Below the pieces are notes generated by a model, which searched no databases, was not told the origin of the DNA, and worked only from the letters and a program-made list of their open reading frames with translations. Below, piece after piece: positions 3,915 through 14,355 of a DNA stretch of 64,000 nt. Both the position numbers and the translations under genes were made by a program. The stretch comes from Schauerella fraxinea (GTDB lineage: Bacteria; Pseudomonadota; Gammaproteobacteria; Burkholderiales; Burkholderiaceae_B), in the NCBI GenBank assembly GCA_030849965.1, contig JAVDKL010000001.1, positions 3,082,554-3,146,553 on the forward strand, in the 5' to 3' direction. Numbering within the stretch: the first letter of the stretch is position 1; every line of letters begins with the position of its first letter.

Positions 3915-5240
3915 ATGGCACACGTCCGTCATATCGCTTTGGCGCTGGCGCTTTCCAGCGCCGCGCTCGCCGTTCAGGCCGGCACCGTTACGGTGATCAC
4001 CTCGTTTCCGAAGGACCTCACGCAAGCCTACAAGAACGCCTTCGAGAAGGCGAATCCGGGCATCACGCTGGAGATCCTGAACAAGAACACGGTGGCGGGA
4101 ATCGCTTATGTGCGCGAGACGCCGGCCGGCCAGCGCCCGGATGTGTTCTGGGCGAGTGCGCCGGATGCCTTCGAGGTGCTCAATCGCGACAAGCTGCTCG
4201 CCAAGGCGACCGACATCGCCAACCCGAAGGTGCCCGACAAGATCGGCAGCTTTCCGATCAACGATCCGGGCGGCATGTACTTCGGCCAGGCGCTGGCGGG
4301 CTACGGCATAATGTACAACACGCGCTATGTGAAGGCGAACAAGCTCCCGAATCCGGTGGAGTGGAAGGATCTGTTGGCGCCCGAGTGGTTCGGTCATGTG
4401 GGCATTACGTCGCCCTCGCGCTCGGGCACGATGCATTTGACGGCCGAGACGATTCTGCAGGGCGAGGGTTGGGAGGAGGGCTGGCGCACGTTGCTGCGTA
4501 TGTCGGGCAACAGCAGCGCAGTCACCGAGCGGTCGTTCGGCGTACCCGATGGCGTCAACAACGGTCAGTTTGCCGCCGGTCCGGTGATCGACTTCTTTGG
4601 GCTCTCGAGCAAGTTCTCGAAGTTTCCGGTGGAGTTCGTCTACCCCAGCGAAACGGCAATCGTGCCGGCCAATATCGCGCTGATCGAAGGCGCCAAGAAC
4701 GCCGCCGAAGCCAAGACGTTCATCAAGTTCACGCTCGATCAGGCGGGCCAGGAAGTATTGCTCGAGCCGAAGATTTCGCGACTGCCGGTGCTGCCGTATT
4801 CGGAATTGAAGGGCAAGATTCCGGAGGGTTATCCGGATCCCGCCGAGATCGCCAAGCGCAGCAAAGTGCACTTTGACGTGGACGTGTCGCAAAGCCGGTA
4901 TTACCTCGTGCAGTCGCTGTACGACCAGACCATTACGTTCCGTTTGAAAGAGCTGCAGCAGGCCACCAAGGCCATCTATGACGCCGAACGCAAGCTGGGA
5001 GACAAGGCGAAATCAGGCAAGCCGTCTGAACTGCTGGCCGAGGCGCGCAAGCTCACTTGGGACCCGTTGGTGAATGCGAAGCAAGCGGGCGACGCGGCCT
5101 TCTTGAAGACGTTCTCCGGCGACAAGCGCGATTCGGCCGTGAGCCAGCAGATCACGCAGCTGGAAGGCGAATGGAACGGACGCGCGCGCGCGAATTATGA
5201 GCAGGCCGTGAAGCTGGCGAACCAGGCCGCCGCCCTCTAA
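3915..5240 (+). CDS. ABC transporter periplasmic binding protein (Fe3+/phosphonate/spermidine type)
   Basis: First gene of a three-gene importer. Seen: a signal peptide of about 22 residues ending VQA, then an extracellular solute-binding fold like AfuA/FbpA or PhnS (TVITSFPKDLTQAYKNAFEK near the mature start, ETAIVPANIALIEGA in lobe 2). At 441 aa it is about 100 longer than usual; the extra C-terminal part (about 330-441) is alpha-helical, lysine- and alanine-rich, with coiled-coil character. Ligand is uncertain: iron(III), a phosphonate or a polyamine are all possible by family. Confidence 0.85.
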   Translation: MAHVRHIALALALSSAALAVQAGTVTVITSFPKDLTQAYKNAFEKANPGITLEILNKNTVAGIAYVRETPAGQRPDVFWASAPDAFEVLNRDKLLAKATDIANPKVPDKIGSFPINDPGGMYFGQALAGYGIMYNTRYVKANKLPNPVEWKDLLAPEWFGHVGITSPSRSGTMHLTAETILQGEGWEEGWRTLLRMSGNSSAVTERSFGVPDGVNNGQFAAGPVIDFFGLSSKFSKFPVEFVYPSETAIVPANIALIEGAKNAAEAKTFIKFTLDQAGQEVLLEPKISRLPVLPYSELKGKIPEGYPDPAEIAKRSKVHFDVDVSQSRYYLVQSLYDQTITFRLKELQQATKAIYDAERKLGDKAKSGKPSELLAEARKLTWDPLVNAKQAGDAAFLKTFSGDKRDSAVSQQITQLEGEWNGRARANYEQAVKLANQAAAL

Positions 5241-10643: not shown

Positions 10644-11885
10644 CTAAACGTTCTCGCGTTGCTGCAACAGAAACGGGCGATCGATCTGACGCGCCAACGA
10701 AGCGATATCGCCCGGCGTGACCCCGACCGTTGCGAAATGTGCTTTCCATGTGGACACCGCATCGCAGACTTGTTGGATCTGTTGACGTGCCTCGCTCATC
10801 TTCAGGCCAAACAGAACGTGCTGTGATAGGGCGTTGGAAAGGGTCGAATCAGCCACGTCGTCGCCTACTATCATTGCCTGGTATCCAAGCGCCTGGCCGG
10901 CCGGCAAGACGTCATAGGCAGGAGACAGATCGTAGTGACCTTCATCGGTCATCAGAAAAGCGTGGTTCTTCTCATGGTCGTCCGTGTTGTCCATGAGGAT
11001 GTTGAAGATCATGCGCCTGAAAAGCTCGTGCATCTGGCGTCCACCGCGCCGATCTTGCGTGACACCGCGGCGACGTAACAACTGAGCCATCTGCGGATAG
11101 CCCAATTCCTCCCCGGCGGCTCTCAGCGCCACATTTGCCGATAAGGCGTGGGTGCGTAACCCGTCGTGCCGATCAAAGCGCCTGACCGCGACTGCGTGCC
11201 CTCGGTTGAGCTTTACGGGACGCGTTTCGGCCGCACGGATGCCGGCCCGGGCACAAAGGGTCATGGTGGCGTGCTCCACGAGCGGCCAGTCGATGGACTC
11301 GCCCAGCTCGTTGAACTTCAACACCCACTGGTGCCCATCCATATCGAGCAAAGCCTTCGGTCGCGCACCGCCAAGGGTTGTTCCGGGTTCGATGAGTCGC
11401 TTTTTCCGTTCATCGATATCCTCACCCCGCAACAGGCTCTGGATCAGTTTTTCAATCTCATCGACATCGCGGATGCTCGGTAGAGCGCCAAGGGTACGGG
11501 CGAGATACGCATCACGTGACACCGATACACCCAGCGCGCCAAACCGCTCATCGCCCGCGTAAAAGAGAAAATCCAGCACGGCTAGTCGAACGGGCTTGTC
11601 GAGCACCCTGATGACCTTCTCGCCCCAGCGATCTGGCCTGGCATCATCGACGGCGCCCGCCGCGGTTCGCTCGAGCAGGGGCAGATATGTGCCAGTCTGC
11701 AGGGGCAAATCCTCACTCAGCGCAAAGCCGGTTGCGAGCCATCGATCGTCATAGGTGAGGGACACACCCTGATTGGTACGCACCACATGAAGCTCGCCAA
11801 TCAATCGAGGGTCAGCCGGATTGCCCAGCCACCACAGGTAGAGGGCGTCGCCTGGCCTGTACTGTTCGATGTTGAATGAGGTCAC
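10644..11885 (-). CDS. hipA: HipA-family serine/threonine kinase toxin
   Basis: 413 aa. In E. coli, HipA phosphorylates glutamyl-tRNA synthetase and triggers dormancy (family knowledge). Seen: HipA N-terminal lobe (about 10-130), nucleotide loop TLGGARPK (170-177), likely ATP-binding Lys190, catalytic segment NTDDHEKN (300-307), and metal-binding SPAYDVL (321-327). The residue aligned with E. coli Ser150, the inactivating autophosphorylation site, appears to be Thr170. The gene overlaps hipB by 4 nt and is translated after it. Confidence 0.93.
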   Translation of the reverse strand: MTSFNIEQYRPGDALYLWWLGNPADPRLIGELHVVRTNQGVSLTYDDRWLATGFALSEDLPLQTGTYLPLLERTAAGAVDDARPDRWGEKVIRVLDKPVRLAVLDFLFYAGDERFGALGVSVSRDAYLARTLGALPSIRDVDEIEKLIQSLLRGEDIDERKKRLIEPGTTLGGARPKALLDMDGHQWVLKFNELGESIDWPLVEHATMTLCARAGIRAAETRPVKLNRGHAVAVRRFDRHDGLRTHALSANVALRAAGEELGYPQMAQLLRRRGVTQDRRGGRQMHELFRRMIFNILMDNTDDHEKNHAFLMTDEGHYDLSPAYDVLPAGQALGYQAMIVGDDVADSTLSNALSQHVLFGLKMSEARQQIQQVCDAVSTWKAHFATVGVTPGDIASLARQIDRPFLLQQRENV

Positions 11886-12295
11886 TGATCACCCGCCTTG
11901 TTTGGCCGACCGGTTGCCAAGATATGCGATTGGCGCTCGATATCCTTGCCTGCCCCCTTGACCACATTCGCGCGCGATCGAACCGCCCGCTGGCTGGTCA
12001 CCGCGCGTATATTTTGCTCCAGCGCACCGCGATCGAGTTCCGGTGCAGCAAGCTCCGGGAGGGCGTGCGATCGGCCGACCAGCCAAAGCGCAGTTGCATA
12101 GGCGCCCATCGAAACGCTGGGATCGCCTTTTTCGAGACGTAGCAAGGTGGGCTCAGACACGCCGATGCGTTGCGCCCACGACTTTTGAGTCTCCTTGCGA
12201 CGCTTTCGCGCGATCGCAAGATTCAGCCCCAATTCGCGCAGCTGTGCGCGAGCCGCAGGGGGTAAGGAATCGATAGCGTCGGATCGTTTGGGCAT
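11882..12295 (-). CDS. hipB: HipB-like antitoxin, XRE-type DNA-binding protein
   Basis: 137 aa. Seen: a helix-turn-helix at about 25-80 (WAQRIGVSEPTLLRLEKG) and a basic, probably disordered tail of about 55 residues that may contact HipA or DNA. First gene of the hipBA operon, so the antitoxin is made first. It should repress its own promoter, where AT-rich palindromes lie at the start codon. At 137 aa it is longer than E. coli HipB (88 aa) because of both tails. Confidence 0.9.
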   Translation of the reverse strand: MPKRSDAIDSLPPAARAQLRELGLNLAIARKRRKETQKSWAQRIGVSEPTLLRLEKGDPSVSMGAYATALWLVGRSHALPELAAPELDRGALEQNIRAVTSQRAVRSRANVVKGAGKDIERQSHILATGRPNKAGDQ

Positions 12296-12483: not shown

Positions 12484-12945
12484 ATGACACGCCCTCGTTT
12501 GCTCGCTCTGACCGCCGCCGTTGCGATCTGCGCCACATCCACCGCCTTTGCCCAATCCGATCGCGAAGTCGTCGAGACGACCCTTGCCCGCAGCGCCAAC
12601 GTGTGCCCTGGGCACAGCAAGGATCGCACGACGCCGGCCGTCAGCCTGGTGCCCGTGGGAGGCCTGCGCGTACTGCTGGATAAGGGCTTGGTGATGTGTC
12701 CGGACCGCCGGCTGGATGCGGATGCGCCGGTCGTCTGGTACGGCCAATGGGGGGTGTACGCCTGGAACCCTGAGATCAACGGCGCCGGCAAGCTGGTGGC
12801 CGCTCAGGTCGACCGGATGACGCGCAGCGAAGACTTCCCCACCGACACGCGGGTGTGGAGTGCAAAGGGTGACGAATTGAAGCAACGCACCGTGCCCGCG
12901 TTCGAGCCGCGTCCCGGCGCGGCCGTGCGCGTGAAGGTTCAGTAA
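12484..12945 (+). CDS. Small secreted protein of unknown function
   Basis: 153 aa. Seen: a clean signal peptide (MTRPRLLALTAAVAICATS, cleavage after AFA near 23), so about 130 residues are exported. The mature part has two cysteines (in ANVCPG and VMCPD) that could form a disulfide, and a WYGQWGVYAWNPE stretch. I do not recognise the family. The start is fixed by GGAGG 6 nt before the ATG. The next gene starts on the base after its stop codon, so the two are translationally coupled and probably work together in the envelope. Confidence 0.75.
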   Translation: MTRPRLLALTAAVAICATSTAFAQSDREVVETTLARSANVCPGHSKDRTTPAVSLVPVGGLRVLLDKGLVMCPDRRLDADAPVVWYGQWGVYAWNPEINGAGKLVAAQVDRMTRSEDFPTDTRVWSAKGDELKQRTVPAFEPRPGAAVRVKVQ

Positions 12946-14355
12946 TTGTTGGCCGCACGCGCTTGCTCGATCCGACGGTTGCTGTGCGCCCTGCTACTGG
13001 CGGGCGGCATTGTGCAGACGCCTCTCGCCGCCGCGATGGCGCGACCGGAGATCGAGGCCACGCTTGCGGCCGCCATGACGCAGATCGTGAACCAGTACGT
13101 CGACCCGGTCGACTCGCGCACATTGGTGGCGCACGGGCTGCAGGCCTTGAAGGCACTGCCCGGTGCCGAACAACCCTCGCGCCAGGCCGCTATTGAGCAG
13201 TCCGTGCTGGCCGCGCAGCAGGCCGAGGGCATCACGCCGCAGACTCGAATCCTGGCCGGTGAAATCCTGGGTTTTGCCGACGGCGCGCCGCGCGAGACGG
13301 CACTGAGTGCAGCGCTGCGCGGCATGGTGGCCAATCTGGACGCCTACAGCCGGGTCGCTACGCCCGCCGAATTGGCGCCGCCGCCTGCGTCGGTGGGCCT
13401 CGAGCTGACGATGCGTAACGGCGCGCTGACCGTCGTGCGGCCGCTGCCTGGCAGCCCGGGCGAGCGCGTCGGTATTCAGGCGGGCGACATCGTTACCAAG
13501 ATTGATGGCCGTGCGACCGAGAGCTTGCCGCTACCCGAAGCGGTTGCATTGTTGCGCGGCACGCCCGGCACCCCCGTCATGGTCGCACTGAGGCGGGCGG
13601 GCGCGGGGGACACGATCGTCGTGCAGCCGGTGCGCGGGCCGGTGCAGGCACCGCCAACCGTGCGTTGGGAAATGCACGGCGCGGTGGCGGTGATCCGCGT
13701 CGCAGCGTTCGACAGTACAACCGGCGGCAAGTTGCGAGAGGCGTTCGATGCCGTGTCCGCCCGCGCCGACGCGCCGCTGGCAGGCCTGGTGCTGGATTTG
13801 CGCGGCAACGCCGGCGGGCTGCTCGACGTGTCCGAACAGGTCGCCGGGCTGGTTTTGCGCGAAGGATCTCGGATCGGCAGTCTGCTTGGCCGCACCCCAG
13901 CCGATGCCCGCCCATTACGCGCCCGCGACCCTGTAGTGCCGCATGATGTGCCGGTGGTCGTGCTCGTGGATCGTCGCACGGGTGCCGGCGCGGAGATTGT
14001 GGCGGCTGCGATGCAAGATCACCGCCGCGCCTTGCTGATCGGTGCAAAGACCGTGGGTGCCGGTACCATCCAGACGGTGCTCGCGTTGCCCGCCGATCAG
14101 GGCGCCCTGGTGCTGACCACCGCCCGGGTGCACCGCGCTGGCGGCGACCGGCTGGATGCGGTGGGCGTATCGCCGGATTTGCTGCTCGATGACGCCACCC
14201 GGCAAATCGCCGTGCATGCCAACATGGCAGCCGACTTCAACCCCACCGTGCTGCAACAGGTGCGCACGGCGGTGGCCACCGCACCCGCAGGTGCCGACGT
14301 GGCCGTGCTGGCGGCGCTGGCCGCCCTCAAACCTGCAACCGGCCAGCGCAGATAA
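12946..14355 (+). CDS. S41 (C-terminal-processing) peptidase-fold protein lacking the catalytic dyad
   Basis: 469 aa, exported. Seen: signal peptide (about 1-30), helical N-terminal part, a PDZ domain (about 148-230) and an S41 core with the conserved LVLDLRGNAGG block (281-291). In active Prc/CtpA enzymes the core carries SASASE and, 25 residues later, GKG, giving the Ser-Lys dyad. Here these read TGAGAE and GAG, so the serine is Ala347 and the lysine Ala372; the third residue Asp358 is kept. It should therefore not cleave peptides by the usual mechanism but may still bind C-termini. The start is TTG, directly after the previous gene's TAA. Confidence 0.85.
   Translation: MLAARACSIRRLLCALLLAGGIVQTPLAAAMARPEIEATLAAAMTQIVNQYVDPVDSRTLVAHGLQALKALPGAEQPSRQAAIEQSVLAAQQAEGITPQTRILAGEILGFADGAPRETALSAALRGMVANLDAYSRVATPAELAPPPASVGLELTMRNGALTVVRPLPGSPGERVGIQAGDIVTKIDGRATESLPLPEAVALLRGTPGTPVMVALRRAGAGDTIVVQPVRGPVQAPPTVRWEMHGAVAVIRVAAFDSTTGGKLREAFDAVSARADAPLAGLVLDLRGNAGGLLDVSEQVAGLVLREGSRIGSLLGRTPADARPLRARDPVVPHDVPVVVLVDRRTGAGAEIVAAAMQDHRRALLIGAKTVGAGTIQTVLALPADQGALVLTTARVHRAGGDRLDAVGVSPDLLLDDATRQIAVHANMAADFNPTVLQQVRTAVATAPAGADVAVLAALAALKPATGQRR

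Follow-up and report, generated by a model that had tools for sequence, protein, structure and literature searches.

The gene described here encodes an exported protein that belongs to the S41 peptidase family by fold and homology, and that carries alanine in place of both the catalytic serine and the general-base lysine. It lies in a window of 64,000 nucleotides from Schauerella fraxinea (the window is the whole stretch of DNA that was analysed), and the same pair of alanines is present in every member of the clade to which the protein belongs. Judged from these substitutions, the protein, referred to below as pseudo-S41, should be unable to cleave peptide bonds by the Ser-Lys mechanism of the S41 family, and it is probably proteolytically dead. 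We estimate at about 60% the probability that pseudo-S41 is a periplasmic pseudoprotease that binds polypeptide without cutting it and would thereby shield, sequester or present envelope proteins that are otherwise processed by CtpA. Pseudoenzymes are common, and the S41 enzymes that make up the CtpA/Prc group exert control over cell-wall hydrolases, the maturation of adhesins, and signalling.

The coordinates of the gene and of its features are given in Table 1. The TTG start abuts the TAA stop of an upstream gene for a protein of 153 amino acids. In genome G001 and several others the orthologue starts with an ATG that reads ATC in the window copy (12946-12972), and so the window copy relies on TTG. 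The N-terminus, RRLLCALLLAGG...AAA, was recognised by eye as a putative signal peptide. Pseudo-S41 matches PF03572 over residues 247-412 (E 1.5e-32; score 112.9 bits, cut-off 24) and PDZ_6 (E 1e-12), and its score for TIGR00225 (prc), 175.2 bits, is under the cut-off of 218.6. The original prediction had listed the signal peptide, the PDZ domain and the LDLRGNAGG block as intact, and all three are present, the first as read by eye.

Table 1. Features of the pseudo-S41 locus in window coordinates.
Feature	Position	Strand	Basis
Gene for pseudo-S41 (exported, PDZ and S41 domains, 469 aa, Ala347/Ala372)	12946..14355	+	ORF, Pfam, alignments
GAAGG ribosome-site-like sequence, 8 nt 5' of the TTG start	12933..12948	+	sequence
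Putative signal peptide, residues 1-30 (RR, hydrophobic core, AAA)	12946..13035	+	by eye, sequence and orthologue alignment
N-terminal region, residues 51-135: 85 aa vs 26 aa in CtpA (59-residue insertion)	13096..13350	+	
PDZ domain, approximately residues 147-217; SVGLE loop kept, HpCtpA Phe105 -> Pro147	13384..13596	+	PMC12749690
LDLRGNAGGL, residues 284-293, including the first substrate-clamping strand AGGLL	13795..13824	+	PMC11021448
Ala347 codon GCC, position of the nucleophile Ser	13984..13986	+	
Ala372 codon GCC, position of the general-base Lys	14059..14061	+	
Q376-T377-V378, second substrate-clamping strand, invariant in 14/14	14071..14079	+	PMC11021448
Gene of a small secreted protein (153 aa, without Pfam/NCBIfam match), adjoining pseudo-S41 in the same frame	12484..12945	+	

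Aligned to the solved CtpA structures by phmmer, pseudo-S41 has no gaps across the active site. Ala347 falls on Ser300 and Ala372 on Lys325 of the H. pylori enzyme (HpCtpA), with the same 25-residue spacing, and the equivalents in P. aeruginosa (PaCtpA) are Ser302 and Lys327; the two replacements, first proposed from the window, are confirmed by this alignment, as is the retention of Asp358. Gln376 is also retained. In PaCtpA, S302A or K327A singly abolishes activity in vivo (PMC11021448). The whole SASASE motif has been rewritten to TGAGAE in the window copy, so that the neighbouring serines are gone too, and Tyr134 occupies the position of the histidine used by PaCtpA (His84), a change that the original prediction had not mentioned. 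All 14 members of the clade read T[GA]AGAE and GAG, the latter also being the reading of chain 9ku3, the HpCtpA S300A/K325A/Q329A laboratory mutant, and the catalytic histidine is missing in 10 of the 14. Ser, Lys, Gln and His are retained in each of 86 active-type S41 proteins, read from relatives and from the samples of the class and the phylum. Could the protein still be an enzyme in which the catalytic residues have been relocated, for example to Thr345 and another base? Thr345, next to the position of the nucleophile, does not vary, but no lysine, histidine or cysteine is invariant across the 14-member alignment, which leaves no relocated dyad that the clade could share; His359, found in 13/14, is common in active CtpA as well, and Lys368 is variable. 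We regard a relocated active site as extremely improbable, and a second Ser/Lys pair, which had been named as a possible objection to the original prediction, is not shared by the clade.

Pseudo-S41 has 14 members, the window copy included, among 268 Alcaligenaceae genomes; they come from five genera of soil and opportunistic bacteria and are 93-46% identical. In an IQ-TREE phylogeny they form one branch on a long stem with support of 100/100. The search of other Alcaligenaceae for the Ala/Ala pair that had been proposed thus returned it in all 14 members, down to 46% identity and with SASASE/GKG in none, which rules out a strain-specific error. Outside the family, a sample of 399 genomes from the order yielded no member at E<=1e-35. 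In the class and phylum samples, which hold one genome per species so that rarer members elsewhere are possible, the best other protein scored 256 bits with the profile, whereas the window protein scored 794, and all of the non-family S41 proteins read from them keep Ser and Lys. A scan of contigs added a single orthologue record, from Achromobacter (now Schauerella) aestuarii. Phage and plasmid collections gave only matches of less than 60% identity, and on IMG/VR contigs the CtpA-like S41 genes that were read have kept Ser and Lys.

The codons at the two positions vary synonymously while the amino acid stays constant (GCC, GCT, GCA and GCG for Ala347; GCC, GCG and GCA for Ala372), and pairwise dN/dS, calculated over the whole mature protein by NG86 with our own script, is 0.17-0.38. 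Both observations argue that the dead active site is being maintained. Within the Achromobacter-type genus the intact gene is present in 9/43 genomes, and at least two of the 43 carry decayed remnants that are interrupted by stop codons or frameshifts or are reduced to the C-terminal part. The remnants at L143:2265-2681 and L144:2285-2479 comprise stops and frameshifts, and a C-terminal fragment. The gene can therefore be lost, and it is both sporadic (14/268) and dispensable, but the decay in these relatives looks unlike the state of the 14 members. It is accordingly very unlikely that loss of the catalytic residues was a step in the decay of a neutral gene; the sporadic occurrence, the remnants and the reliance of the window copy on TTG would suit such a relic, whereas 14 intact frames that diverge to 46% identity, the low dN/dS and the invariance of 92/297 core positions do not. 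Absence of the catalytic residues throughout the clade, under purifying selection, makes this a maintained pseudoprotease as originally proposed, with true decay elsewhere as the contrast. In the tree the Schauerella sequences are nested among those from the Achromobacter-type genus, and the gene sits in differing genomic surroundings, a pattern suggestive of transfer, of repeated loss, or of both.

What has been conserved in pseudo-S41 are the parts that would hold a substrate. Both clamping strands, GGLL and QTV, are invariant in the clade, and Arg204 (HpCtpA Arg162) is retained. In PaCtpA S302A a co-purified peptide is held by both strands via main-chain hydrogen bonds (PMC11021448), PDB entry 4c2g shows CtpB(S309A) in complex with a peptide, and HpCtpA S300A/K325A/Q329A retains its fold and substrate (PMC12749690). 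An AlphaFold2 model of pseudo-S41 built from seven sequences is of moderate confidence (pLDDT 68, pTM 0.55), and no atomic claims are drawn from it; among PDB entries it is matched best by CtpA structures, one of them that of the S300A/K325A/Q329A mutant (best E 3.5e-27). The invariant strands would permit peptide binding, and we infer that pseudo-S41 binds polypeptide. The mode of recognition may differ from that of CtpA. The clade has a 7-residue deletion ahead of the PDZ domain, and the Phe that precedes GKG, invariant in the 86 active proteins, is V, A, M, L or T in the clade. With the replacement of Phe105 by proline, and given that F105R impairs HpCtpA (PMC12749690), these changes suggest that classical C-terminal recognition may be lost. 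Binding in the tunnel may also need a partner, as PaCtpA binds peptide only after LbcA has bound.

In the reading that we prefer, an extended segment of polypeptide would be gripped, with the assistance of the PDZ domain, between strands of the cap and of the core. The bound segment would be held uncut, and envelope proteins which are otherwise substrates of active CtpA could in this way be shielded, sequestered or presented. The maturation of the adhesin FhaB by CtpA, known within the Alcaligenaceae from Bordetella bronchiseptica (PMC8263021), points to exported proteins that are processed from the C-terminus as candidate clients. That the clade as a whole consists of periplasmic non-cutting binders which control what CtpA degrades, perhaps anti-sigma factors or exported adhesins, is a tentative proposal, with perhaps one chance in a few of being right. 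The dead scaffold might instead carry small molecules or lipids, as in vertebrate RBP3 (IRBP), a protein of bacterial origin that has lost its catalytic residues and carries retinoids and fatty acids (PMC11750400). RBP3 is among the weak matches of pseudo-S41, but the match is limited to residues 337-452 (E 8.5e-9), and pseudo-S41 has kept a PDZ domain and the invariant strands for clamping peptide, neither of which a lipid carrier would require; we consider a carrier role very unlikely.

The two ends of the protein bear on whether pseudo-S41 could assemble with CtpA. The CtpA hexamer is a trimer of dimers formed by means of N- and C-terminal dimerization regions, and in pseudo-S41 both regions are altered in sequence. 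From Y51 to S135 there are 85 residues in the clade (78 in one member) and 26 in 82/86 active proteins, so that the 59 extra residues fall within the dimerization region at the N-terminus. The N-terminal helices of CtpA, 36 residues long, have their best match at residues 30-65 of pseudo-S41, ahead of the insertion. A tandem duplication was considered as the origin of the insertion and found no support, as 42/100 shuffles were equally good. The C-terminal tail has 51-60 residues in the clade as against 71-150 among the active proteins listed, and the region of the trans-interacting loop is mostly absent from it. What is left is a short helix at the C-terminus, in which a D...AA..A pattern is conserved.

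The genome encodes two S41 proteins, pseudo-S41 and a single intact CtpA (L001), and a CtpA-type match is found in 43/43 Achromobacter-type genomes. Pseudo-S41 might then be a regulatory subunit: in a hetero-oligomer with active CtpA, or with the adaptor of CtpA, it would inhibit the enzyme or tune its activity. Many pseudoenzymes regulate their active paralogues in this manner. The best match of the CtpA N-terminal helices and the surviving C-terminal helix would agree with such a role, and the HpCtpA N-dimers, which always have one resting subunit (PMC12749690), make a naturally dead subunit conceivable. Against it, pseudo-S41 and ctpA are not co-located, the two proteins are only about 36% identical, and the insertion in the dimerization region together with the shortened tail makes a mixed CtpA hexamer less likely; on balance we find a regulatory subunit doubtful. 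More generally, pseudo-S41 may act as an inhibitor or adaptor, as the original prediction had suggested with regard to an active Prc, or as a chaperone, and any interplay with CtpA, including that proposed for the uncut binding of envelope proteins, is speculative.

The neighbourhood of the gene offers little that is constant, and beyond close pairs no conserved operon context was found across the 14 loci. The original prediction had pointed to the small secreted gene next to pseudo-S41 as a neighbour to look for elsewhere; it adjoins pseudo-S41 in only 5/14 loci, and three further genomes with pseudo-S41 carry it at a different place. The small gene occurs in 13/268 Alcaligenaceae genomes, and an obligate partnership was rejected on the adjacency in 5/14 loci only. 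In genome G157 the small secreted protein is approximately 80% identical though its gene is far from the S41 gene. Upstream of the small gene in the window a HipA-like gene and an HTH gene, a pair resembling a toxin-antitoxin system, lie between syntenic genes (10644-12295, minus strand); the pair is mostly missing in the sister species, and in G001 just the last 49 HipA codons are left (L061:4480-4626).

Three or four loci are near genes for FecR and/or TonB-receptor-like proteins, with none near the window copy, and a link to cell-surface signalling was set aside as weak, such genes being common in these genomes. At L056, L057 and L059 there are FecR anti-sigma genes (one by Pfam, the others by similarity) and long TonB-receptor-like genes near pseudo-S41, and L059 also has an ECF-sigma-like gene. 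In several loci (L052, L049) pseudo-S41 is flanked by Rap1a-immunity-like, DUF6985 (Pfam) and Sel1-repeat genes (repeats read), for example at 4237-4617 and 6583-7239 of L052 when oriented as the S41 gene.

A dead paralogue that has long been kept beside an active enzyme provides a ready test of a role in binding as distinct from cutting, and the automatic label 'S41 family peptidase' can mislead for such a protein. In the open-access literature searched, the coverage of which is incomplete, we found no description of a bacterial clade of CtpA-type pseudoproteases. If the preferred reading is correct, pseudo-S41 would be a non-cutting binder and the natural counterpart of the traps made in the laboratory by Ser-to-Ala and Lys-to-Ala substitution in CtpA.

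S41-related proteins without catalytic residues are already known from RBP3/IRBP, which like pseudo-S41 has lost these residues and became a binder (PMC11750400). Unlike pseudo-S41, it is a eukaryotic protein of tandem modules with retinoid and fatty acid ligands, and it aligns only over the span given above. The top NCBIfam score is that of TIGR03900 (MXAN_5808 family), 197 bits over residues 122-417, although this is far under the cut-off of 661 and the model is 973 positions long. The closer comparison is with CtpA of P. aeruginosa and H. pylori (S41A). Pseudo-S41 shares with it the order of signal peptide, N region, PDZ, and cap and core, the LDLR..GG and QTV motifs and the fold; it differs in that Ser and Lys are Ala in all members of the clade, His is mostly lost, and the PDZ Phe is Pro, as well as in the N-terminal insertion and the short C-terminal tail. 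Nearly identical active-site substitutions have been made in HpCtpA S300A/K325A/Q329A (9ku3) and PaCtpA S302A, which are still folded and hold a substrate peptide (PMC12749690, PMC11021448). In pseudo-S41, in contrast to these laboratory mutants, the change is natural and fixed in the clade, and the glutamine replaced by Q329A in the HpCtpA mutant has been kept.
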